NCBI RefSeq assembly: GCF_000226115.1
Contig: NC_016457.1
Location: forward strand, 7,502,001-7,566,000
DNA from: Thermothielavioides terrestris NRRL 8126
Lineage: Eukaryota; Ascomycota; Sordariomycetes; Sordariales; Chaetomiaceae
Length of the DNA: 64,000 nt
Direction of reading: 5' to 3'
The notes below the pieces were generated by a model, which searched no databases, had not been told where the DNA came from, and worked only from the letters and a program-made list of their open reading frames with translations. Position numbers and translations under genes: made by a program. This document shows, one piece after another, positions 9,826 through 25,987 of the stretch; the stretch's first letter is position 1, and each line of letters starts with the position of its first letter.

Positions 9826-12800
9826 GGTAAGAAGTTTATTACTACGATCAATGCTATATCCTTCTTTTATTAATTCGATATATATCTTCTATATTACGAC
9901 CGCTTTACTCTGATTAGCCTTTATAGATTAGAATAGCTGAAAGTATATCTAATAGGCTACTACAATACTCTTATATATATCTAGCGCTTTATAGATTAGT
10001 TGCTTCGCCTTTATACCTCTTTCGCCTATATATTTATTGACGATATTATTATCTTTAGCGACATTGTAGATTAGTACGCTAAGTACCTAGAAACTATCTT
10101 TAGTTTCTTTAAGAAGAAGAATATCTCTATTGCTCCTATTAAATCTTATATCGTATATCCTAGCATAGAGCTACTTAGTTTCTATATCGATAGATTTAGA
10201 CTAACTAATATAGAGCACTGTGTTGCTGCCTTTAGGAACCTCGCCTTTCCAAATAACCTAAAGGCTCTAGAGCAGTATATCGGCGTATTAGGATTTCTAC
10301 GCTATCTAATCCCGTACTATATACAGCTTATCAAGCCTCTCTAGAATTATAAGACTATACTGTTTACGAAAGGCTAAGCTACTGGCTAAGTATAAAATAG
10401 AAACCCTAGTAAGTACGCCGCCTATTGCGCTAAGACCTCCTTCGAATCTACGCCTACTAAGAAAGCCTCCTTCGAAGCTATTTAGAATGCTATCTATAAG
10501 CCGGACCCAACTATTTTAGTCCACTTCGACCTTAATAAGACTCTTTTCTTATAGATCGATAGATACCTAGAGTATAGCTTCGGTATTATAGTGTTCTACC
10601 TTGCTAATAGTTATAAGTAGAAGCCTAGAACTATTATCCTATCGACTTAGGTTTAGCCTATTATATTCCTAAGCTAATACCTTACTAAAGAAGAACTTTA
10701 GTATAGACCTTCTAAATAGGAGGTCGCCTACTTTGTTTAGGTAGTTAAGAAACTACGTACTATAATCTATTCGTTGTATAAGCCTATCATCGTCCTTATA
10801 GATTACGTCTCTACGAAAGGCATCGTCAACTAGACTATTTTAGATACGTTATCTACTAAGTAAGCTAATTATAGGCTTATCAACGCCTCTATCTACCTTT
10901 TGTAATATAATTTAGAGATCTATTATCTTCTAGGCCACTTGAATTTAGTGCCTAATACACTTAGCTATCTAAAGGCTCTATAGGATGACCTAAACTATAA
11001 GAACGGTTCTGTCGACGACGATATAGTCCTCGACAATATCTAGTTCGCCTTTGTGGAAGCGAAGTTGGATAACGACCTTTAAGCTCGCTTTACGGCTATA
11101 TATTCTTATAACACTAAGTATATAGCTATTATTAAAGATTTTACTGTCGAATTAGCTACTAAGGGCAGTAGTAAGATTTTCTTTTAGCCTAGCTTCCTAT
11201 TTATCCTTATAGATAGCCTTCTCTATAATATTCGACCTAACGGATTACATTCACTTTATATACCTTACAATATAATTTAGACTATCTTAGAAGCTACCTA
11301 TAATAAGAAGTAATACTTTAGCATTAAGTAGATATTATACAACTTATAAGGTATATCGATAGCCTATAAAACCTATAACGTTAAAAAGTATATTAAACTA
11401 TACCTAAAGTACTAAGTTAATACAATGGATCGTCGCTTTAAACTAGGCAACTATTAACCAATTCGACTATCTAATACCTTGCCGATATACGTTATCGCTA
11501 TCGATTTTATTCTAGGCCTACCGAAGGTCTTAGCTACTAGTTCGCCCTAGTAGCTTCTAAACTACAACTACTTCGATAGTTTGCTTATAGTATCTTATAA
11601 GTCATTGAAGTGTACCCTCCTTATTTTAGGCAATTCTAGCTATTCGGCTTAGGAATAGGGGTATATTCTAATTCGCTAACTGCTTTTTAGCGACTAGGGC
11701 GTACCTACCGCGATTATCTTCGACTATAATTACAAGTTTATTTCCAACCTTTAGTAAAGCGTTTAGAAGGCTCTAGGCATTAAGTTGCTAATAACGATAT
11801 TCTACTACCTATAAGTGGATAGCTTTTTGGAGTATAAAAACTAGACTATAGAAATTATAATCTGCTTCAATATATTTAAGCGCTCTAAAAGCAATTAGCT
11901 AGATATTATTATACCTCTACAATAGTACTTTAACAACGTTTATACTAAAGCTATTAAATCTTTACTTTATAAGTAGCTCTTTGGCTTTAAGCTTCCTAAA
12001 CCTTTAGAAGCTTTTACTAACTAGGCTACTACTGAGCTAGCTACTATTCTAGCCCTATAAAATGCTCTATATTAGGATGCTTAATTAAGTATAGACTTCG
12101 CTATAGTGTACGTTAAGCGCTATTACAATAGTAAACATCGCGACATTGAGTTTAATATAGGCGACAAGGTTTATTTATACCTATACTATAGTTACTATCT
12201 CCTAGGCAACTCGTCCTAGAAGTATTTATAATAGCGCGCTAGGCCTTTTCTAATTAAACGCTACGTTGGGCGCCTAGTATACGAACTAGATCTCCTAGCT
12301 AATATAGGTATATACCTAGTTGTTTCTATCGCTTATCTTCGCCTAGCCTCTTAGAAAGAGGATCTATTTAGCTATAATATGTTGCCTCCTAGCTTGATCG
12401 TCGACTTTTAATTGGACTACTCTTTAGGTAGCGAATTAGGCAATGAATATAAGGTTGATATAATCTTGAATCATAAGGTTATATGTAAAGGCCTTAAATA
12501 CTTAATTAAATAGACTAGTTATAGCTAAGAAGAGAGCATTTAGAAAACTATATATAAGCTATATTATATATAGTGCCTAATCGACGAATACTAGGCTTAT
12601 AAAGGCGATTATCCAGATTGCCTAGTCTCTTAGGAAGAGCCTCCTATACCTGATTAGGCACCTTAACCGGCCTATAAGCGTAGCTGGCCTCGTAAAAACC
12701 CTGTTCCCGCTAGCGATAACAAGATGTAGAAGAAGCTAGTTGATCGCTATCTAGATTAATCTAGTACTATACTTCTAGCCCTACGTTGTAGTACTCGATT

Positions 12801-13129
12801 AAAGGGTATTTAACGATATAGAGGATCTAGATAGGTAAGGCAATGAGGGCATTGCCGTTTTTTCCTATAGGCCTAGACTTGATATAGGGCAGGAGGAATA
12901 GGGGAGTTATATAACTTATATGTCTATATATATAGATTAGATAAGGGTGCTTTGCGCTCTACGTTGTAGACTTTGTAACGCTAGGCCCATTTGGGCAGGC
13001 GGTGTACGTATATATATTCTGCCCTATAGATATATATTTCTTAGCATACTACCGCCTAGATCTTCGATCTACTACTATCATCAATCTATATCTTATTATT
13101 CTACGTATCTATAGCACTTCTTCGCATTA
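9826..13129 (+). mobile_element. 5'-truncated, RIP-degraded Gypsy element (same family as 16585-32358)
   Basis: The plus strand is homologous to the reverse complement of the large minus-strand Gypsy. From about 9826 there is reverse transcriptase (GKKFITTI..., then FIDDIIIFSD near 10035), RNase H (about 10500-10850), integrase (about 11000-12400) and a 3' LTR at 12880-13129. Stops interrupt all frames. The 5' LTR, gag and protease are missing; the left border is approximate because homology fades among less mutated sequence just upstream. With the 16585-32358 copy it forms an inverted pair of related repeats, a suitable substrate for RIP (inference). Confidence 0.82.
12880..13129 (+). repeat. 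3' LTR of the truncated Gypsy (inverted copy of the 250-bp LTR family)
   Basis: A 250-bp LTR starting TGATATAGGGC and ending CGCATTA (a RIP form of CGCATCA). It is the reverse complement of the LTRs at 16585-16834 and 32109-32358, and the length matches exactly. The internal sequence just before it (CCTATAGGCCTAGACT) matches the internal sequence next to the LTR at 16834. Confidence 0.85.
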
Positions 13130-14470
13130 CTAAGCTTTATATCCCTACTAAGGAGGCTATAAAGTAAAAGCTCCTTAGGTGATACTATAATAATCCCCTA
13201 GTAGGATACTTCGGTTATAACTAAACTAAGGAGTTAATACAACGAAAGTACTATTAGCTAAGTATTAATAGAGAAATAAACGAATATTATAATATCTACC
13301 TAGTATATTAGTATTAGAAACTATTAAAATATCGACCTTATAACAACCTTTAATCGCTACTAATACTAATATAACCTTAAAGCGAGATCGCTATAGATTT
13401 TATTATAGGTTTTCCTATAGTAGAACAACTAGATAGTAAAAAGGATATAATCCTAGTTATAGTTGACTAATATATAAAGATAAGTCGATTCTTCTCTATC
13501 TTAACCTCTATTTATAGCTAAGAGTTAGTAGAACTCCTCTATTGAGAGATTAAACTCAAATATAGAGTACCTTATAGATACCTTAGCGATTAAAGCTTAG
13601 TCTTTACCTCCTAATTTTAAAGCGATCTTTGCTATTTAAACTAAATAAACTATAGACTTTCAATAGTATTTTACCTTTAAACTAATAGCTAGACTAAACA
13701 AATAAATTAAATCTTTATCTAATACCTCTAATGTTTCGCTTCTTTAAATCCTATCACTTAGGCAACACTCCTCTTTAAAGCTAAATTCGTTTACAACAAT
13801 TTTATTAATATAACTATTAACGTTACCCCTTTTTAAACACTTATAGGTTACAACCCTATAATTTCCTACTATATTGAGGACAATACTTAACAAAGAAGGG
13901 TACTATACCCTAATATAGTAGAATAGATTAAGAAGCTTAAAGAGTTGTATCGATAGCTAGAGCGACATTAGGCTAACGCTATAGCAAGTTAGAAACAGTA
14001 CTACAACGAAAAATATAAATCAATAGAGTTCTAGAAAGGAGCCTTAGTTAAATTGTCTATTTAGAATCTAAAACTTAAGACTAATAAGAAGCTAAAGCCT
14101 TACTTCGTTAAGCCGTTCTAAGTATTAGACTAAGTAGGATCGCTAATATATCGGTTAACCTTACTATATAAGTATATAAAGCTATATAATATATTCCTAG
14201 TAGCTCTATTAGAGCCCTAATATATATAAACTATAGCTAAAGAAACCTAGATGCTAATACTAGACCTAGAGGATAATAAAGAATAGGAAGTCGAAAAAAG
14301 TATAGGCTAAACAACGAATTAAAAGTAAAATATTCTTTTAGGTAAAGTAGGTAGGTTAGCTATTAGAGTATAACCAATAGGTCTATAAAGACGATATAGC
14401 AAATGTATAGCGGATAATCTACTAGTTTCAACGAATATATAAAGCTACTACTAAAAGGAAGTAAGGGGAA
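13130..14470 (+). mobile_element. Gypsy remnant: integrase plus chromodomain
   Basis: Read through TAG/TAA stops, the plus strand gives an integrase zinc region (YYNNPLVGYFG ... YQLSIN), a catalytic core (IAIDFIIGFP ... ILVIVDQYIKISRF ... VPYRYLSDQ ... TKQINQIF), a C-terminal region (LKLKTNKKLKPYFVKPFQV) and a chromodomain-like end (VGRLA...V) near 14330-14460. The family differs from its left neighbour. The remnant begins exactly at the end of that neighbour's LTR, which suggests the truncated Gypsy inserted here (inference). It is inactive. Confidence 0.75.
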
Positions 14471-16579: not shown

Positions 16580-16584
16580 TATAT
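16580..16584 (+). repeat. Target-site duplication TATAT (left), Gypsy element
   Basis: TATAT directly precedes the left LTR. The same five bases follow the right LTR at 32359-32363. A 5-bp duplication is normal for Ty3/Gypsy integration and confirms both element borders. Confidence 0.8.
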
Positions 16585-16834
16585 TGATGCGGAAAAGTAC
16601 CGTAGATATGTAGAATAACAAGATGTAGATTCATTATAATAGTGGATCAAGGATCTAAGCGGTGGTACACTAAGAAATATATATCTGCAAGGCAGAATAT
16701 ATATATGCACACCGCCTGCCTAAATGGGCCTAGCGTTGCAAAGTCTGCAACGCAGAGCGTAGAGCACCCTTATCTAATCTATATATATAGACATATAGGT
16801 TATATAACCCCCCTATTCCTCCTGCCCTATATCA
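16585..16834 (-). repeat. 3' LTR of the minus-strand Gypsy
   Basis: A 250-bp repeat, imperfectly identical to 32109-32358. On the plus strand it begins TGATGCGGAAAAG and ends GCCCTATATCA. The differences between the copies are almost all C/T or G/A, as RIP would leave. Confidence 0.9.
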
Positions 16835-18418
16835 AGTCTAGGCCTATAGGAAAAAACGGCAATACCCTCATTGCCTTACCTATCTAGATCCTTTATATCG
16901 TTAAATACCCTTTAATCGAGTGCTACGACGTAGGGCTAGAAGCGTAGTGCCGGATTAGTCTGGATAGCGATCAACTGACTTCTTCCGTATCTTGTCGTCA
17001 TCAACGAGAATAGGGTTCTTACAAGGCCGGCTACGCTTATAGGCTAGTTAAGGTGCTTAATCAAGTGTAGAAGGCTTCTCTTAAGAGACTAGGCGATCTG
17101 GATAATCGCCTTTGCAAGCCTAGTATTCGTTGATTAGGCGCTATATATAGCGTAGCTCGTATATAGTTTTCTAAACACTCTCTTCTTAGCTGTAGCTAGT
17201 CCATTTGATTAGGTATTTAAGGCCTTTATATATAACCTTGTAGTTAAGAATTATATTAACCTTATATTTATCGCCTAATTCATTGTTATTAAAGGAATAG
17301 TCTAATTAAAAGTCGACGATTAGGCTAGGAGGCGGTATATTATAGCTAAAAGGATTATCTTCCTAAGGAGTTAGGCGAAGGTAAACGACGGAAATGACTA
17401 GGTAGATACCTATATTAGCTAGGAGATCTAATTTGTAAACTAGGTAGCTAACGTAGCGCTTAATTAGAAAAGGCCTAGTATACTATTATAAGTACTTCTA
17501 GGACAGGTTGCCTAGGAGATAGTAACTATAGTATAGGTGTAAATAAACCTTGTTGCCTATATTAAACTCAATGTCGCGATATTTACTATTGTAATAGCGC
17601 TTAGCGTATACTATTACGAAGTCTATACTTAATTAAGCATCTTAACGTAGAGTATTTCGTAGAGCTAGAATAGTAGCTAGCTTAGTAGTAGCCTAGTTAG
17701 TAAGAGCTTCTAACGGTCTAGGAAGCTTAAAGCCGAAGAGCTACTTATAAAACAAGGATTTAATAGCTTTAATATAAACGTTGTTAAAATACTATTACAA
17801 AGGTATAATAATATCTAGCTAATTGCCTTTAGGGCGTTTAAATATATAGAAGTAGATCGTAATTTCTATAGTCTAGTTCTTATACTCCAAAAGGCTATCC
17901 ATTTATAGGTAGTAGGATATTGTTATTAGCAACTTAGTACCTAGAGCCTTCTAAACGCCTTGCTATAGGTTGGAAGTAAACTTATAATTGTAGTTAGAGA
18001 TGATCGTAGTAGGTATACCCTAGTCGCTAAGAAGTAGTTAGCAAATTAGAATATACCCCTATTCCTAAGCCAAATAGCTAGAATTGCCTAGAATAAGGAG
18101 GATACACTTCAATAACTTATAAGATACTATAAGCAAGCTGTCGAAATAGTCGTAGTTTAGGAGCTACTAGGGCAAACTAGTAGCTAGGACCTTCGGTAGG
18201 CCTAGAATAAAATCGATAGCAATAATATATATTAGCAAGGTATTAGATAGTCGAATCAGTTGATAGTTACCTAGTTTAGAGCGACGATCTATTATATTGA
18301 CTTAGCACTTTAGATATAATTTAATATACTTCTTAACATTGTAGGTTTTATAGGCTATCAATATACTTTGTAAGTTGTATAACATCCATTTAGTACCAAA
18401 GTGGTACTTCTTATTATA

Positions 18419-18423
18419 GATAG
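18419..18423 (+). repeat. Target-site duplication GATAG (left), Copia element
   Basis: GATAG immediately precedes the left LTR and matches the five bases after the right LTR. Joining the flanks across one copy restores a continuous Gypsy sequence. Confidence 0.92.
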
Positions 18424-18605
18424 TGAGAATAGCAGCGAAGTGGGGCCATGCAGGATGCAGAGGCATGTGTATTGAGAGAGGTGCTCCTCTCAAGCTGGGT
18501 GGGAGGAGCGCCGAGGTCTATATACATGTGTGGGCAGAGCTGACATGTGCCCCCTGAGCGCAGGGAGCCTGGCAGATAGAGTCACGTGTGCACTAGCACG
18601 CGACA
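18424..18605 (-). repeat. 3' LTR of the Copia element
   Basis: 182 bp, beginning TGAGAATAGC and ending CGCGACA on the plus strand (TG...CA). By eye it is identical over its full length to 25801-25982. Confidence 0.95.
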
Positions 18606-18616
18606 CACCCCCCAGA
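18606..18616 (-). promoter_or_regulatory. Polypurine tract of the Copia element
   Basis: In element orientation the bases directly before the 3' LTR read CTGGGGGGTG. A G-rich purine run at this position is the expected plus-strand primer for reverse transcription. Confidence 0.7.
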
Positions 18617-18679
18617 CAGACTCTCAGGAGGCTGTCTGTGGAACACGCATGCTGGGCACTGACTCTGGAGCTCGCACTG

Positions 18680-19252
18680 CCAGGCGCATTGAACTGTGGC
18701 CTCCGGTATTGATCCCACCATTGCGCGCAGCCGCCGCCATTGTGCAAGTTGTCCGCGCGCCATTGTGTACGCGTTGTGGCGCGTGCGTTGGCGAATTGCG
18801 TGCTGCGCTGAATGCGGTCAGACCCAGGGGCGCCAAAGTTGACATTCAGGGGCGCTGTCGTTGGCATTGTTGCGAGCGCCATTGATCGCATTGTGCGCAG
18901 TTCCCAATTGCGCAGCGCGTTCCATCCCCATCCTCCATTCAGGCGCGTATCTTGAATCGTGCCGCCTCGATTGTGGGTGCAGGTTGCGCAATTGAGCATT
19001 GCGATCATTCGCATGTGTGCCATTGTGGCCTTTGTTGCCCAACGTCTTGAATGCACGCCCACCATTGCTACCCATTGTTGCATTCGCGCCATGCAGACAA
19101 TACCGCAGTGCCGCAGGCCGGTCGATGGCTGCACTCCTGGAAGTATTTAATCATGGTGAGTGCGCCTCAAACCATCTCCCGAACTCTTCCTCTGCAGACC
19201 GCGAGCAACAGCAGCAGCATCAGCAACAACAACAACATCAACAACAACAACC
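18680..19252 (+). promoter_or_regulatory. Upstream region and leader of the antisense cargo gene
   Basis: About 570 bp between the polypurine tract and the cargo ATG. It holds roughly eleven copies of CATTG between 18685 and 19077 (most as CCATTG or GCATTG), far more than expected by chance, plus further ATTG cores. Just before the ATG is a CAA/CAG-rich leader (19209-19251), a common type of fungal 5' leader. No TATA box is obvious. It may be an internal promoter reading opposite to the LTR promoter (inference). Confidence 0.5.
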
Positions 19253-20166
19253 ATGCCGTCCTCTGCTCGCCTCGCCGCTCTCGAGAAGGCCCGCGCCGCC
19301 AAGGCGGCCAAGAACAAGCCTCCCCCGCTCCCGGCCACCCCCACCAAGGCTGGCGCTGGCGCCAGCAAGAAGTGAGCACACCACAATCTGCCCGACTGGC
19401 GCGGCGCGTACATCCGCGTCTCTGACACTTGCAGCAGGACCCCCGCCACGCCGAAGACCCCCTCCAAGCGTGCGGCGCCCCCCTCCTCCTCCTCCTCCTC
19501 TTCGGAGGATGAGGAGGAGGAGGGCGCCCTGAGAGAGCAGCCCTGCCTGGGTTGCCTGAAGTCCGCCATGCGCGGCAAGAGCTCTGGGGAGTGCCGGGAG
19601 GCCCCCGGCAAAGCGGCCCGGTGCGCGCGCTGTGCGCGCGGCAAGAAGTGTCGCTCCATGTAAGTCTGTCAGCACAGTTGCAAGGCGCACGGTACTGATG
19701 AATCAGCCCCGCGAGTGTGCTCCCCGCCGCCAAGCACTTCCTGGCCCTGATGCAGGGGCGCCAGGAGCCCAAGGCCAATCTCGTGAGTACAAATGAAAAG
19801 ACAAAGGAAAAGAGCTAGTCTGACTGTGTGTGGTAGGACCAGAAGACGCTGCGCGCCACCCTGCGCGCCCTCCTCGCCATGGAGTGCGAGGACGCCGACG
19901 CCGAGGATGACGACGACGATGACGACGAGCGCGCGCCCGCGCCCGCCAAGGGCAAGGGCAAGGGCAAGGCAAAGGCGGCCGCGCCCACCAAGAAGTCCAA
20001 GAAGGCCAAGAAGGCCAAGAAGGAGGAGAGCGAGGAGGAGGACGAGGATGAGGACGAGAGCGAGGAGGAGGCTGCTCCGGGCTTTGACCCGGAGGCGCTG
20101 GCGCGTGGTGTGGCGGCGGCGGTGCTGGCCGCCATGACTCCCAAGAAGAAGAAGGGTGGCAAGTAG
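19253..20166 (+). CDS. Antisense cargo gene of the Copia element: Lys/acid-rich protein with a six-cysteine cluster
   Basis: Four exons: 19253-19371, 19438-19659, 19707-19782, 19837-20166. Every intron has GT-AG ends and a CTGAC or CTGAT branch point. The spliced protein is 248 residues. It starts MPSSARLAAL, has an Ala/Lys/Pro-rich N-terminus, a Ser-then-Glu run, and a cysteine cluster of form C-x2-C-x11-C-x9-C-x2-C-x5-C (CLGC ... SGEC ... CARC ... KKC). A helical-looking segment (LPAAKHFLAL), an Asp/Glu run, lysine-rich tracts (KKSKKAKKAKK) and a KKKKGGK tail follow. The cluster loosely resembles a fungal zinc cluster, and the lysines suggest a nuclear protein (inference). The start follows a CAA-repeat leader (CAACAACCATG). 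The gene ends 87 bp before the pol stop, in convergent orientation, so the two transcripts should overlap. It is wholly inside the retrotransposon. The first 3' splice site is a tandem CAGCAG. I know of no assigned function. Confidence 0.8.
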
Positions 20167-20253
20167 TTCCGCGTTGTTGTTTGTTGTTTCGCGGGTGCGG
20201 GCACCCCCCAGTCTGTTTTGCGCCGGCGTGCGCTCCTGTGTTTAGTTTGTTTT

Positions 20254-23200
20254 TTACTCAAGCCTTGCGTTCCTGTCCCCCTGATCGTCTCCCTGCACCA
20301 TATGACGCACATCCTGCAGGTTGAGGAGCTCCCTGAAGTGCTCGAACTTCTGGCGAGTCAACACCTTCGTAAGCCCATCTGCAGGCATCTCAGCAGTTGG
20401 CAAGTACGCGACCTCGAAAGATCCCTTCGCGTGTTCCTGACGCAGCCACATGTTGTGGATGTCAACATGACGCAGGCGAGTGCTGATGCGTTCGTTCTCT
20501 CCCACCACGAGCCGGATGGTCTGCGTGTTGTCACAGAACACAGTCCAAGGCACACCCAGCTCAAGTTGCAGGTCGCTGAGGAAACGCTTGAACGCCATTG
20601 TCTCCCGCGCTGCGGTGGACAGAGCGAGGAGCTCCGCCTCCGTAGACGAGGTGGTGACTGTATCTTGGCGCGCAGCCTTCCAATGAACGAGCCCACCGAA
20701 CAGAGAGATGAGATAGCCTTGTGACGACCTGCGCGTATCAGGATCATCCGCATGCGACGCGTCCCCTGCGATGAGCAAGATTTGCGTGGGAGCAGCATCC
20801 TGCGGCACACCCCCGAACTGAATAGCGAGGAAGCGCGTGCCAAACAGGTAGGAGATTGCATGCTTTGCAGCATCAATGTGTGTCCCCGAGGGGTTCGTCA
20901 GGAAGTGCGAGAGCAACGATGCCGGGAACGCGACCTCCGCGCGCAGTACGACCGCGGCGTAGAGTAGCGATCCAACAAGCTCCTGGAACAGCCTGATCTG
21001 CGCTCGAGTGGCAGTGCCAGTGAACTTGCGGAGTTCCATTACAGGGAGAGGGATGCTTGGAAAGGTGATTTGATCCGCGAGACCGAAGCGCTTCGCAATC
21101 TTCTCGATGTACTGGTCAAGGCAGAGCCAGATCTTGCGTTGCGCGCGGTCGCGGATCACCCTGATGCCCAGGAACCAAGCCACGTCCCCCTTTTCGTGCA
21201 CTTCGTACTTCGCTTTCAGAGCGTCGATGATCCTCTGAGCTGTCTCCGCGTGGTCTCTGTGGTAGAAGACTAGGTAGTCGTCCACGTAGAACAGCACGAG
21301 CACGCGCCGTTGGCGATCGAAGAACAAGCATGGCTCCTCAGGCGAAGCTGTGAGGCCGAGCTTCCGAAGTGTGCCGGAGAACTCTCGGTACCAGAGCAAC
21401 GGAGACTCTCGCAAGCCGTACAGAGCTCTCTGCAGTTCCACAAGAAATCCAGGCTCTTCGAACCCCTCAGGCATCTCGCAAACAACACCCTCAGGCAGGT
21501 CCGCATTCAAGAACGCCTGCGCTACGTCGAACTGCTTGACCTCAAGATCAAACTGCGCGGCGATAGCCATCATTGTGCGGAACGAGCGCGCTGCGAGTGT
21601 GGCTGCATAAGTGCTTTGCAGAGTAGTGAGCTCCTGAAGGTCGCCTCGAACGCAGATGCGAGACTTGCACTTCTCGAGGTTGCCATTCTGATCGAACTTG
21701 TAGACGAAAACCCACTTCAGAGGGAGTGGTCTTCCTTTGAAGGTCTCGCGCCGAATCTTGCGCCATGTCTTCCTGTTGACGAGATTGCGAATCTCTTCCT
21801 CAGCCGCTTTGATGAACTCGGGCCCTTGAGGGTGGTTGGCGAGATCCCTCCAGCGCTTAGGAAGCTTGGCGAGGTCGTCAAAATGCACCCGGGGCCTGCT
21901 TGGCGTTGCCCCAGGACGCGCGTCACGATGTTGGCGGACTGCCGCCGCGAAAACCGCATGCAATGTGCGGTGCTGGATGCTGTCGCCCTCCTGCAGAGCG
22001 ATTACAGGGTCATCCAAAAATGTGTGGCTGAACGAATGCCACGCGTGCTGATCTGGTACGTCGATGCTCTCCTCATGGTACATGGGGGCTGCGAAGCACA
22101 CCAGACCGCCGCTTCCGCCTGCACCGCCGCCGGGAGACTGTCTACGGATCCGTCTTGAGTAACGAGTTGGTGGTCCGTATACCTTGCGCACGTACTTGCG
22201 CTTCTCCCTCGCTGGCGTGGCTGCGGGTGTTCCAGAATCAGGCTGAGAACCATGGTTTGAGGCGTCTTCCCAGTCGTCTGGAGCCTCTGGCTGATCGCCA
22301 GGGCGGTCGACCTCCTCTTCACTGCTAGGAGTATCGACTGCGGCAGCACTTGCCGTCGTGCTGCCCTGGCTGGCACTCCTAGTTGTGCCGCCAGCGACGC
22401 TGCTACTGGCGTCTCCGATAACTGCATCAGGGGCCTCCGATGATGCAGTTCCCACCGGTCTGCTGTCACTGCTAGCACCGTGATCAGCAGGGGGGCCGCT
22501 CCCTCCAAAACCGTCCGGGCGTTCCTGGCGCGGCTCCGGTGTTGGTTCTGGAGTGTAAAGACCACCAGTGGGCTCCTCACCCGAACTCTGGCCGCGATGC
22601 TCGAGTACTTCCGCACCCCCCAGACAGGATGGAGAGTGGGGAGGAGCCTGCCCTTCCGGTTCCCGTTCAGTCACACCCCCCAGATGTCCTGGAGAGCCGG
22701 GAACCGTCACTGGGTCTTCATGGGCATCTGTAACTCCGAACGGCACTGCCTCGGCGTCCCGAGGCTCTATGGGGAGTTCGATGAGCTCAACAACCTTTCT
22801 GGCGACTGCCACCGATTGAGCATCAAGCTGCTCCTCTCCCTCCCGGTAGAACGTGCGTTCGTCAAAGGTCACGTTGCGCGTTGTGATGACCTTCCTGAGT
22901 TTCGGTACCCAGATGCGGTAAATGTTGGACGCCCTGTATCCAACAAGATACCCGATGTGCGCTCTGGGCTTGACCTTCCCAGCACGCCTCTCAATCCCCT
23001 TTTCGCGTTCCTTCGTCAGCGGGTACGCTCGGCAGCCGTACGCATAAACGCCGCCCCAGTTAGGGCGCAGGTCGGCAGTCAGGGAATGCACGAGACCGGG
23101 CTGATACCAGCGAAACCAGTGTCTGAACCAAGAGTCGAGCACCTCGTTCGGTGAGCGGTAGTTGCGAGCGCGACTTGGGCTTATGCCGTGCAAGTACGCA

Positions 23201-25623
23201 GCTGCAACCGTCGACTCTGGCCACAGGTTCTGAGGAAGTCCGGCGCCCGTGAGCATTGCAAGGCTCTTTGTGATAAGTTCTTTGCCTGCGCGTTCTGAAC
23301 CGCCGTTGGGCTCCTTGGTATCCGAAGGCGTAACCTCCAAGTCGATGCCCTGCTCCTGCGCCCAGAGCTCGTACGCTGTGTATCCCTTGATGCCAATGAC
23401 ACTGGTGTCGCCATCCTGCCTGATCTTGCAGATGGGCAGCCCGAATTGGCGTTTCACCCAGCGTTCGAAGCGGACGAGCTCATCGTACACACTGTCGTGC
23501 GTCTTGCGTATGAGTGGAGTCGCGAAAAGCTTCCCACTGTACTCGTCCTTGATGACCAGCAGCCAGTTCGAGCCGTCAAGTGCCCTCGGAAAGTCGAACA
23601 GGTCCCAAGAGACCCTCCAAAATGGGCGTGGTGACGGCTTCGATGGTGGGCGGCGCGAAATAACCTGTTCCGCGTATGCCTGCGCGCATACCTCGCATTC
23701 CAGTCTGCGAGGCCCGCGAATCCGCACACCTCTGGCGTTCAAGACGAGATGTTCCAGCGCCTCTGAACTCAGATGACCAGATCTGATGTGCCAGAGAGCA
23801 GCTGGGTCTTCTCTCTCTGGGAGCGGGTCCTTGGAGGGCCTGCTCCTCCCAAAGTTCTTCACAACTGCAGCGCTCAAAGTCACAAGTCCGGCAAAGCTTC
23901 TGGGGAGCACCCGAAGGGCATCAGAGTAGGAGGAAAGAGCATTGTATTGCAAGAAGGTCAGGTTGAACTTCTCGACCAGCTGCCTGAGTACAATACTCTT
24001 CTCCAAAGTTCCCCAACGCAGCGTGCAATCCAGACCGCAGTACCAAGCGCCCTGCGCTCGAAGGCGTCTCTCAGAGACAATGTTGACGTGAAAGCCCTCG
24101 ACGACAGCAACGTTGTCTATGACAAGGTCCTCAGTGTTCGGGCCGCGCGCGCCGTTCAAAACGTTCTTGATGATCCATTTGCCGCGGCCAGAGATTGGGA
24201 AGGATGTGGTGCCTGCCTCAACAGTCTCACCGCTCGTCTTGACGAACGTGCCAGGGACAAGGAGAGCCCTGTCATTGACGAGATTGACCGCTCCACAGTT
24301 GTCAAACAGAATGCACTTGCTGAGCGGGTGTGGGCCAAACTCGAGAGATGCGAACACGCCACGCGCTCCTTCGAGCTCGCTTGCGATCGCTGGGTCGATG
24401 ACAGCGTGCACCTGGAGCGCTCCCGGAAATGAAGGACCCGCGCCACTATTGGAACTAGTGGTCTTGGCGTTTGACGATGCGTTCTGGATCTTCCAACCGA
24501 GCTTCTGGAGCTCCACTCGAAGGTCGTTCCAGCGCTCCTTGGCGAATCGTTGGCGCACTGCATTCACCGCGTCGTTTGGGAGCGTCACGCCGTTCAGGGA
24601 TTCCCCTGTCAGAGCGTACCGAAGTTGCCGACATTCCGAGGGAAACCACCAGTGGCGAAAAGTCTTCGGCTTGCACGGGCAGTCGCGGTTCTTCTTGCGC
24701 TTCTGACTGCCCTTCTGACCGTTCTGCGCTCCTGGAAGCACGGGGTAGGCTCCAGGCTTCGGGTGGACCACCGCTTCAGCCTGGAGGATCGCCTCGAGTG
24801 AGAGAGCCAAGTCGAGAAGGGTTGGTCCTTTGCCGCCGAGCTTCTCAGTCACACTGATATCCTTCAGCATGCGAGTCGCCCACTCTGGATCCAAGCGTCT
24901 CTGCACAGTCTTGAGGAATGTGGTGACGGCTGTTGCGTCGGTGACTGCGGCGATGTTGGCCGCCCTTGCGCGGTGGAGGACCGACATGTACTCGAGAATC
25001 CAGGTCCTGGGTTCGACGCCGCTCTGGCTGCCTCTGGCAAGGACAGTTGCGTACTCCTCGGCAAGCGCAGTGAAAGTAGCGCTGTTGGAGGGTGCGATAA
25101 TCTTGCGCAGCGTCTGTATAAACCCGCGTGTGCCGGTGACGTTCTCGGCCTCCATGATGTCGTGTGCGGTGTGTGCGTAGCGGTCGCTGACAGACACGTT
25201 GATCATCTCGCGGAGCTTGTTGACGGCACGGAACGCCGCAGTGTCGATGGCGGACTTCGAGAACGCCTCGCACAGCTTGAGGAATTCACGGCGGATCTCC
25301 TCCTCAGTAGGATTGGTTGACTGAGGTTCCTCGCCACGGGTGGTGGGATCGGCTGCCTTCCAGGCTTGCAGTGCAGTGTGCCACGCCTGAAGATGGCGGT
25401 CCTGGACCGCCTGACGTGCCGCACCCTGGGTGGGCTGCACAGGAAGGCCGAGCATCTCAGCCTCGGTGGCGAGCTCGGTGTCTGGGTCGATGATGTGCCA
25501 GACACGCAGGTTGTTGGCCTCTTGGCGAACAGCAGAGATCCATCTTGGCCAGTCCTTGGGGCTGTCGAGGGTTGGAAGCGCTGCAACAGCAACGGTGACG
25601 GTTTTCTCAGTTTCGAGTGTCAT
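20254..25623 (-). CDS. Copia Gag-Pol polyprotein
   Basis: A 1,789-residue polyprotein that encodes what the element needs to copy and integrate itself. The Gag-like N-terminus (about 1-300) is followed by an atypical zinc-knuckle region (CPC...H...C, about 313-330). The protease lies around residue 440 (LFDNCGAVN, where the usual D-S/T-G is DNCG). The integrase has an HHCC zinc region (WHIRSGH about 611-617, CEVC about 642-645) and a DDE core (Asp in SWDLFD about 672, Asp in RQDGD about 735, Glu in GGSERAGKE about 775). A Ser/Pro/Glu-rich linker (about 1040-1270) precedes reverse transcriptase (KWVFVYK, KQFDVAQAFLNA, FYVDDYLVF about 1445) and RNase H (AGDASHAD about 1618, SSTEAELLAL, CDNTQ). 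The order PR-IN-RT-RH defines Copia. No frameshift or internal stop is present, so it is probably functional. The many open frames opposite it are shadows. Confidence 0.96.
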   Translation of the reverse strand: MTLETEKTVTVAVAALPTLDSPKDWPRWISAVRQEANNLRVWHIIDPDTELATEAEMLGLPVQPTQGAARQAVQDRHLQAWHTALQAWKAADPTTRGEEPQSTNPTEEEIRREFLKLCEAFSKSAIDTAAFRAVNKLREMINVSVSDRYAHTAHDIMEAENVTGTRGFIQTLRKIIAPSNSATFTALAEEYATVLARGSQSGVEPRTWILEYMSVLHRARAANIAAVTDATAVTTFLKTVQRRLDPEWATRMLKDISVTEKLGGKGPTLLDLALSLEAILQAEAVVHPKPGAYPVLPGAQNGQKGSQKRKKNRDCPCKPKTFRHWWFPSECRQLRYALTGESLNGVTLPNDAVNAVRQRFAKERWNDLRVELQKLGWKIQNASSNAKTTSSNSGAGPSFPGALQVHAVIDPAIASELEGARGVFASLEFGPHPLSKCILFDNCGAVNLVNDRALLVPGTFVKTSGETVEAGTTSFPISGRGKWIIKNVLNGARGPNTEDLVIDNVAVVEGFHVNIVSERRLRAQGAWYCGLDCTLRWGTLEKSIVLRQLVEKFNLTFLQYNALSSYSDALRVLPRSFAGLVTLSAAVVKNFGRSRPSKDPLPEREDPAALWHIRSGHLSSEALEHLVLNARGVRIRGPRRLECEVCAQAYAEQVISRRPPSKPSPRPFWRVSWDLFDFPRALDGSNWLLVIKDEYSGKLFATPLIRKTHDSVYDELVRFERWVKRQFGLPICKIRQDGDTSVIGIKGYTAYELWAQEQGIDLEVTPSDTKEPNGGSERAGKELITKSLAMLTGAGLPQNLWPESTVAAAYLHGISPSRARNYRSPNEVLDSWFRHWFRWYQPGLVHSLTADLRPNWGGVYAYGCRAYPLTKEREKGIERRAGKVKPRAHIGYLVGYRASNIYRIWVPKLRKVITTRNVTFDERTFYREGEEQLDAQSVAVARKVVELIELPIEPRDAEAVPFGVTDAHEDPVTVPGSPGHLGGVTEREPEGQAPPHSPSCLGGAEVLEHRGQSSGEEPTGGLYTPEPTPEPRQERPDGFGGSGPPADHGASSDSRPVGTASSEAPDAVIGDASSSVAGGTTRSASQGSTTASAAAVDTPSSEEEVDRPGDQPEAPDDWEDASNHGSQPDSGTPAATPAREKRKYVRKVYGPPTRYSRRIRRQSPGGGAGGSGGLVCFAAPMYHEESIDVPDQHAWHSFSHTFLDDPVIALQEGDSIQHRTLHAVFAAAVRQHRDARPGATPSRPRVHFDDLAKLPKRWRDLANHPQGPEFIKAAEEEIRNLVNRKTWRKIRRETFKGRPLPLKWVFVYKFDQNGNLEKCKSRICVRGDLQELTTLQSTYAATLAARSFRTMMAIAAQFDLEVKQFDVAQAFLNADLPEGVVCEMPEGFEEPGFLVELQRALYGLRESPLLWYREFSGTLRKLGLTASPEEPCLFFDRQRRVLVLFYVDDYLVFYHRDHAETAQRIIDALKAKYEVHEKGDVAWFLGIRVIRDRAQRKIWLCLDQYIEKIAKRFGLADQITFPSIPLPVMELRKFTGTATRAQIRLFQELVGSLLYAAVVLRAEVAFPASLLSHFLTNPSGTHIDAAKHAISYLFGTRFLAIQFGGVPQDAAPTQILLIAGDASHADDPDTRRSSQGYLISLFGGLVHWKAARQDTVTTSSTEAELLALSTAARETMAFKRFLSDLQLELGVPWTVFCDNTQTIRLVVGENERISTRLRHVDIHNMWLRQEHAKGSFEVAYLPTAEMPADGLTKVLTRQKFEHFRELLNLQDVRHMVQGDDQGDRNARLE

Positions 25624-25780
25624 CTTGAAGCAAACTGAGGTGTGCTGCGTTGTTCAGACTGAACGATGGGGGTGATGTGAACTTGTGGGAGTTGTTGACG
25701 ATCGAGAAAACTGGAAGTGGTTGTTGGAGAAAAGAAGAAGGATGGCCCCAACTGGGCTACACCGCTGTTATGAGTGTTGT

Positions 25781-25800
25781 GCGCGAACCGGGCTCATAAC
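25781..25800 (-). promoter_or_regulatory. Primer-binding site for a half-tRNA(iMet)
   Basis: The plus strand next to the 5' LTR reads CGGGCTCATAAC, ending exactly at the LTR border. That is the anticodon stem and loop of initiator tRNA-Met up to nucleotide 39 (anticodon CAT). Drosophila copia is known to prime reverse transcription with the 5' half of tRNA(iMet) cleaved after nucleotide 39, and the same geometry is seen here. The upstream GCGCG also fits the D-arm side of that tRNA. Confidence 0.8.
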
Positions 25801-25982
25801 TGAGAATAGCAGCGAAGTGGGGCCATGCAGGATGCAGAGGCATGTGTATTGAGAGAGGTGCTCCTCTCAAGCTGGGTGGGAGGAGCGCCGAGGTCTATAT
25901 ACATGTGTGGGCAGAGCTGACATGTGCCCCCTGAGCGCAGGGAGCCTGGCAGATAGAGTCACGTGTGCACTAGCACGCGACA
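25801..25982 (-). repeat. 5' LTR of the Copia element
   Basis: 182 bp, the same as 18424-18605. In element orientation it lies upstream of Gag-Pol and should hold the promoter, but I cannot fix a TATA box within it with confidence; TCTATATACA around 25893 is a candidate on the plus strand only. Confidence 0.95.
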
Positions 25983-25987
25983 GATAG
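25983..25987 (+). repeat. Target-site duplication GATAG (right), Copia element
   Basis: GATAG immediately follows the right LTR and matches 18419-18423. Confidence 0.92.

Follow-up and report, generated by a model that had tools for sequence, protein, structure and literature searches.

In human T-cell leukemia virus type 1 (HTLV-1), the HBZ gene lies antisense at the 3' end of the provirus, is spliced, has a promoter in the 3' long terminal repeat (LTR), and encodes a nuclear regulator of the bZIP type. In the element Boty, an antisense gene named brtn was reportedly described by Zhao et al. in 2011. It is listed as an additional antisense gene of Boty-like (Ty3/Gypsy) elements of Botrytis cinerea (several BcGypsy1 consensus groups; PMC8365987). 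Certain plant LTR retrotransposons contain antisense open reading frames (ORFs) between pol and the 3' LTR that are suspected to be regulatory; the roles of these accessory genes are stated to be unknown, and the antisense protein of Grande is described as nuclear and its gene as having its own promoter (PMC7264820, PMC11963269). Spliced antisense long non-coding RNAs have been described in Copia (Copia-63) and Gypsy elements of Blumeria hordei (PMC10648671), while the copy-number control of Ty1 by p22 provides the idea of an element-encoded regulator acting in trans (PMC4599808). Here we report on a complete Ty1/Copia element in a 64,000-nucleotide stretch of the Thermothielavioides terrestris NRRL 8126 genome (NC_016457.1, positions 7,502,001 to 7,566,000 of the forward strand; hereafter, the window). 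The element occupies window positions 18424-25982 on the minus strand, and between its pol gene and its 3' LTR a spliced gene is predicted on the opposite strand. The reading that we prefer, with a probability of about 0.55, is that the element carries an antisense accessory gene of its own.

The predicted antisense gene and its host element

The interval between the pol stop codon and the 3' LTR, which the initial annotation had correctly placed at 18606-20253, contains a predicted plus-strand gene that begins with an ATG at 19253 and ends with a TAG stop codon at 20166. The four exons proposed in that annotation join to an in-frame coding sequence (CDS) of 747 nt, encoding 248 aa (249 aa if the alternative acceptor in CAGCAG is used). 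Its three frame-restoring introns, of 66, 47, and 54 nt, all have GT-AG ends, and in each of them a CTGAC or CTGAT sequence resembling a branch-point motif is visible. The predicted protein contains the six-cysteine cluster, the acidic runs, and the Lys-rich tracts ascribed to it earlier. The cluster has the form CX2CX12CX9CX2CX5C (Cys 76, 79, 92, 102, 105, and 111); a seventh Cys is at position 156, and PKKKKGGK is found at the C-terminus. The parts of the gene are as follows:

18606-19252, plus strand: upstream region, putative promoter and 5' untranslated region (UTR), with a CAA-rich leader and 11 CATTG pentamers
19253-19371, plus strand: exon 1 of the gene model, ATG at 19253
19372-19437, plus strand: intron 1, GTGAGC...CAG, from splice-site reading; with the alternative acceptor the intron ends at 19434
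19438-19659, plus strand: exon 2 of the gene model, acidic run and six-Cys cluster (residues 76-111)
19660-19706, plus strand: intron 2, GTAAGT...CAG, 47 nt, from splice-site reading
19707-19782, plus strand: exon 3 of the gene model
19783-19836, plus strand: intron 3, GTGAGT...TAG, 54 nt, phase 0; +4 or +1 in a related sub-family, from the alignment of copies
19837-20166, plus strand: exon 4 of the gene model, acidic and Lys-rich tracts, C-terminal PKKKKGGK, stop codon TAG
20167-20253, plus strand: 3' UTR region of the antisense gene by its sequence, abutting the convergent pol stop

The 647 bp upstream of the ATG lie inside the element and comprise a TATTTAA stretch, the CAA-rich leader directly before the ATG, and repeats of the pentamer CATTG. 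This pentamer, picked by eye, occurs 11 times on the gene strand in 18606-19252, where CAATG occurs 0 times (300 shuffles: mean 2.5, maximum 9). Such a composition makes it likely that the gene has its own promoter in this region. Pol and the antisense gene are convergent, so the overlap of sense and antisense RNA follows from geometry and can form if both are made.

The host element, described as intact in the initial annotation, is complete, with paired LTRs, a target-site duplication (TSD), gag-pol, and a paralogous empty site. Both LTRs are 182 nt in length and 100% identical, the TSD GATAG flanks the element on both sides, and gag-pol is a single minus-strand ORF (25623-20254) of 1789 aa. 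A search with Pfam profiles placed RVT_2 at residues 1296-1520 of its product (E=4e-32) and SH3_retrovirus at 854-926, as well as gag_pre-integrs, below its cut-off, at 604-649; none of the integrase-core models scored at E<=1 in this polyprotein. The order of RVT_2 with integrase-side domains upstream in one polyprotein is that of Ty1/Copia elements, and the LTRs are accompanied by a 5-bp TSD, a primer-binding site (PBS), and a polypurine tract (PPT), the last judged by eye. The features of the element are as follows:

18419-18423, no strand: TSD GATAG on the 3' LTR side, from flank comparison
18424-18605, minus strand: 3' LTR, 182 bp, same as the 5' LTR, from LTR alignment
18606-18613, minus strand: putative PPT GGGGGGTG, adjoining the 3' LTR
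20254-25623, minus strand: gag-pol ORF, 1789 aa (gag pre-integrase below cut-off, SH3-like, RVT_2), from the ORF and profiles
25790-25800, minus strand: putative PBS GTTATGAGCCC, adjoining the 5' LTR, from complementarity to tRNA-Met
25801-25982, minus strand: 5' LTR, 182 bp, from LTR alignment
25983-25987, no strand: TSD GATAG on the 5' LTR side, from flank comparison

An uninterrupted paralogous site at 11227-11356, in the other arm of an old inverted repeat, contains a single target copy and matches the joined flanks of the element at 107 of 130 bases, junction included, which indicates that 18424-25982 entered as one unit. The inverted repeat itself is AT-rich, about 1.8 kb long (arms 11294-13132 and 16582-18423, 86-88% complementary), and RIP-mutated by its look (RIP, repeat-induced point mutation); its right arm is interrupted by the Copia insertion and continues after 25987.

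The putative PBS is located directly after the 5' LTR and is complementary to the anticodon region of tRNA-Met, as judged by the tRNA-Met genes of the same genome, so that priming at this region is likely. The 13-base pattern GGGCTCATAACCC, composed of the PBS complement and two further bases of the tRNA, was found three times in the genome, each time in a tRNA-Met gene; the reversed control pattern also occurs three times, and the count by itself is no evidence. A hairpin, GTTATGAG...CTCATAAC, also directly follows the 5' LTR (window 25740-25830, minus strand; z -3.0, 2 of 200 shuffles as good).

Copies of the antisense gene and constraint on its frame

Our searches of the T. terrestris genome covered 36,912,256 bases in six contigs. 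The antisense protein gave 134 match pieces, and a DNA search with 18424-20253 revealed at least 19 full-length copies that match over 1830 bp with a rounded identity of 100%, plus truncated ones; these counts are lower bounds, with 40 of the 115 candidates scored. Each of the 19 near-identical full copies found has the antisense gene, with a gene body that appears intact, and this includes four in which the pol frame is 1519 aa long. It was read base by base in eight of the copies (L001-L008; at most one transversion) and through the matches in the remaining ones. The antisense arrangement was found in eight of eight short loci. All 19 stop-free RVT_2 matches in the genome coincide with these 19 places, where the open frames over the reverse transcriptase (RT) are of 1799 aa (14 copies), 1519 aa (four copies), and 817 aa (one copy). 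Matching 5-bp TSDs flank 16 of the 18 other near-identical copies; one copy has a mismatch (TACTC vs. AAATA), and the TSD of the remaining one was read incompletely (AAAAA vs. AAA). The left flanks of these 18 copies all differ. The four copies with the 1519-aa frame (L008, C1:4577457, C2:8403011, and C5:769851 of G000) sit at different sites, and it may be that intact copies mobilized them in trans; in L008 the length differs by 22 bases and the frame is changed. Two truncated fragments that are 100% identical to the element, at C1:9629645-9630741 and C1:4384547-4385044 of G000, end inside or upstream of the antisense gene, and one of the two is near a full copy.

Twenty older loci were chosen for their match to the antisense gene. 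Pol was found in all 20, and the gene or its remains lie beside the pol end, on the opposite strand, in all 20. A protein search inside these loci matched the gene in 19, and L019, which retains 347 of 1648 positions of the region, was placed by a DNA match. The region is covered nearly whole in 18 of the loci, while in the internally deleted L028 the gene is broken by deletions of 199 and 298 bp. The gene is thus, as had been supposed, a stable part of the element, and the alternative of a unique insertion in one copy does not agree with its antisense presence at the same place in other Copia copies. As a coding antisense sequence that is located between pol and the 3' LTR and shared by most or all of the copies, it answers to the definition of 'aORF-3R'.

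The differences of the older copies from the window copy are mainly C>T and G>A changes, in hundreds, with few transversions, and these copies are RIP-mutated members of the window family. Their identity to the window copy over exon 4 (55-73%) could suggest diverged families, an interpretation that we rejected on the basis of the substitution counts. Since the copies are RIP-mutated, we dropped the ordinary ratio of non-synonymous to synonymous rates (dN/dS) and used transversions and length changes instead. The 1.65-kb region contains 6-9 transversions in L009, L010, L012-L015, and L017, and 62-87 in L018 and L021-L026. L020 and L027 share 22 of 23 upstream sites of the differences of the L018 group and both its pol-end differences, yet have a gene body of the window type, which mostly includes the introns. 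L011 is likewise a mosaic, with the upstream and pol differences of one sub-family and the gene body of another. It appears that two versions of the gene body were exchanged between sub-families, most simply by recombination. An adaptive change was considered for the faster evolution of exons in one sub-family; recombination fits better, given that introns are equally diverged and the flanks are common to another sub-family, and we claim no positive selection.

Length changes were counted in 18 older copies (L028 was left out for its large deletions, and L019 is absent from the alignment). All nine changes in exons (+18, -3, -3, +3, +9, -9, -9, +3, and -6) are multiples of three, as compared with four of 18 outside the exons; the hypergeometric probability of this contrast, calculated by hand, is 715/4686825, or about 1.5e-4, and two single-base events close together upstream may be a single one. 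In intron 3 the changes are of +4 or +1, and would be harmless only if this intron is removed. Among transversions, we analysed those common to at least four of six copies in the gene (L018 and L022-L026; L021 excluded) and to at least three of four copies in pol (L018 and L023-L025). The antisense CDS has 34, of which 13 are synonymous (expected fraction 0.196, p=0.015; rate ratio near 0.39, calculated by hand), and 19 of the 34 fall in third positions of the spliced frame (p=0.0056), as compared with 11 of 34 in the unspliced phase. For pol, 47 of 71 transversions are synonymous (p=1e-17; ratio near 0.12). The six Cys codons of the cluster are free of these transversions; outside it, Cys 156 has been altered. 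The third-position bias, the synonymous excess, and the exon changes in threes call for a product that is, or at least once was, translated, and suggest that the spliced protein has been under moderate constraint between sub-families.

The same results bear on the possibility that it is the antisense RNA that matters, not the protein: the RNA would pair with genomic RNA and feed silencing or limit the copy number, with the frame being secondary. The genomic RNA of the element necessarily covers the whole gene in reverse, and the spliced antisense RNAs of Copia-63 and other elements of Blumeria hordei were judged non-coding (PMC10648671). Such an explanation would not account for a third-position bias in the spliced frame without one in the unspliced phase, for the synonymous excess, or for exon changes in threes, and we regard it as unlikely.

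A second Copia family of the genome, represented by L042, is 47.7% identical to the window family over 519 aa of RT-RNase H (51.0% if stops are ignored), and those of its copies that were seen are RIPed. Homology between its copies extends about 1.26 kb beyond the pol match, up to an LTR of about 200 bp, inferred from match ends and one repeated piece. In 15 of 15 copies (L042 and 14 others), this stretch contains an antisense exon with Tyr or Cys codons laid out like the Cys cluster, with Cys retained in some copies (YLGC, HCKR, SCK). The exon is followed by a GT(G/A)A(G/A)T donor, a 50-nt intron, and a TAG acceptor (TAA in L048), after which residues resembling AxKKIRPTLRILL stand at the same offset and in the same phase as DQKTLRATLRALL after intron 3 of the window gene. 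A profile comparison of the two genes gave a score of 23.7 (hhalign probability 17), reached by none of 100 column shuffles (best 22.4), and 58 spacer windows on both strands gave at most 19.35. It is probable, judging by these profiles and by the exon layout, that the two genes are homologous and have one intron position in common. The position of intron 2 appears uninterrupted in the L042 family, which would be an instance of intron gain or loss within a retrotransposon gene.

A tree of RT sequences, both RIPed and intact, places L042 with the window family and separates it from L041, L043, and L044 (support 0.997; RIP adds noise). The spacer after pol is only about 0.25 kb in L043 and 0.26 kb in L041, with LTR starts inferred from repeated pieces, which leaves little room for an antisense gene in these families. 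In L044 another repeat starts at most about 0.48 kb after pol, which is suggestive of the lack of the gene there. Thus, the antisense gene seems to mark one branch of Copia elements in this genome and probably dates back to the common ancestor of two families.

Several points weigh against a functional protein-coding gene. Some of the exon length changes sit in codon-like tandem repeats, which favour multiples of three anyway. Exon 1 by itself has no bias (one of five transversions at a third position), exon 3 is the densest in transversions (9 of 76 in most copies of one sub-family), and the density in exons is about equal to that in introns and upstream. The antisense gene evolves much faster than pol, and the measure of constraint comes from 34 transversions in dead, RIP-mutated copies. 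The homology to the gene of the second family is probable rather than certain, and tblastn searches of that family with single copies were weak (E 0.002 at best) and often hit other stretches. The gene model is derived from the DNA sequence, and the predicted protein has no Pfam family over the cut-off, no relative in NCBIfam, and no match in PDB. Some of this could be expected of a relic, i.e., an old capture that is now drifting and is kept because the copies are young; the similar transversion densities of exons and introns would agree with it, and the 19 near-identical copies, intact as their gene bodies appear, tell little on selection. A relic would nevertheless hardly leave the constraint between sub-families that is indicated by length changes, synonymous excess, and third positions, the probable occurrence in a family whose RT region is about 51% identical, or an apparently intact gene body in every near-identical copy, and we consider it quite improbable.

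Origin and possible function

The initial annotation raised the capture of a host gene. The introns, leader, and 3' region do resemble those of an ordinary fungal gene, and the six-Cys cluster is similar in layout to DUF3716 (PF12511), whose cut-off is exceeded by 10 loci of the genome with a like Cys layout. The comparison is marginal: the antisense protein does not reach the curated cut-off of the DUF3716 profile, and alignment to nine of the 12 fetched domains (without the incomplete L037 and the two sub-threshold loci L039 and L040) gave an hhalign probability of 6 and a score of 17.4, reached by four of 100 shuffles with fixed Cys and by none of 50 full shuffles. DUF3716 as the source of the gene is thus not shown. 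Outside the element, the best own-genome match of the Cys core had E=0.52 (20% identity), in a word-based search that could miss a distant relative. The gene occurs in all 19 full copies and probably also in another family, so any capture would be old. The capture of a host gene, possible as it is, finds no support here, and the explanation that such a gene simply rides along, for the benefit of the host or for none, seems to us improbable. Searches of viral and prokaryotic collections, which are silent on other fungi, yielded no match of the antisense protein in IMG/VR and none of pol in IMG/VR or GTDB contigs.

If the element carries its own antisense gene, this gene would be transcribed from a promoter in 18606-19252 and then spliced. 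Its product would be nuclear, with a Cys cluster that binds zinc, with acidic tracts, and with Lys-rich tails resembling nuclear localization signals. The introns would survive because the genomic RNA that serves transposition holds them backwards, in an unspliceable orientation, and in this respect the reasoning of the initial annotation is sound. The protein might act in trans on the expression or the chromatin state of the element, with an activator, a repressor, and an anti-silencing factor being alike compatible with its features, and we consider a trans-acting nuclear regulator, a role proposed for plant antisense ORFs and known for HBZ, to be its most likely function. The limitation of copy number, the counteraction of silencing, and help with integration, all raised in the initial annotation, are hypothetical roles. 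Since the genomic RNA would span the whole gene, double-stranded RNA might arise if both transcripts are made. A more far-reaching proposal, of a fungal Copia clade with an antisense zinc-cluster nuclear gene that predates the split of the families, originated from a DUF3716-like gene, and controls expression or silencing in trans as a counterpart of HBZ, is tentative and rather doubtful.

With its 19 or more near-identical copies and its RIP-mutated record, this Copia element could serve as a system for asking whether LTR elements make trans regulators, and offers a way to study how such an element copes with fungal silencing and RIP. Thanks to the introns, splice junctions would tell directly whether the right strand is transcribed, and the antisense orientation shows a route by which intron-bearing genes can stay in retrotransposons.

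Comparison with described antisense genes

The window gene shares with HBZ the antisense position at the 3' end, the spliced type, and the idea of a nuclear regulator. HBZ differs in belonging to a retrovirus and in having a promoter in the 3' LTR and a bZIP domain, to which the window protein gave no match. The antisense ORFs of the plant elements Grande, RIRE2, and Retand, as described, have an equal position and orientation and occur in most copies. Retand elements belong to Gypsy, unlike the window element, and their ORFs carry TRP28 (PF04195), which was not matched by the window protein; the main texts of PMC7264820 and PMC11963269 do not mention introns in the plant ORFs. The brtn gene, which we know from citing papers, is also an antisense gene inside a fungal LTR retrotransposon, but of Gypsy and not Copia type. 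The antisense RNAs of Blumeria hordei are described as non-coding, whereas the window gene has a constrained frame outside pol. With Ty1 p22 the window gene has in common the idea of a trans regulator, and no relation.

Among fungal Copia elements, GalEa is described as having QTDD and CQPEA motifs and a conserved hairpin instead of a classical PBS (PMC5445492). The hairpin after the 5' LTR of the window element recalls that of GalEa, though by its motifs the element falls outside GalEa: its pol, read by eye, has YVDD and lacks CQPEA, and it is accompanied by a PBS complementary to tRNA-Met. The word 'antisense' is absent from the main texts of a survey of fungal LTR elements (PMC3248453) and of the fungal Copia survey (PMC5445492), and in our searches of the open-licence literature we came across no Copia element reported to have a protein-coding antisense gene. 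The idea thus has more precedent than was initially supposed. Antisense genes at this position have already been described in plant Gypsy elements, and brtn in Boty, so that the kind is known; in the literature searched, what looks new is a Copia element that combines several introns with a constrained frame and with probable conservation from family to family.
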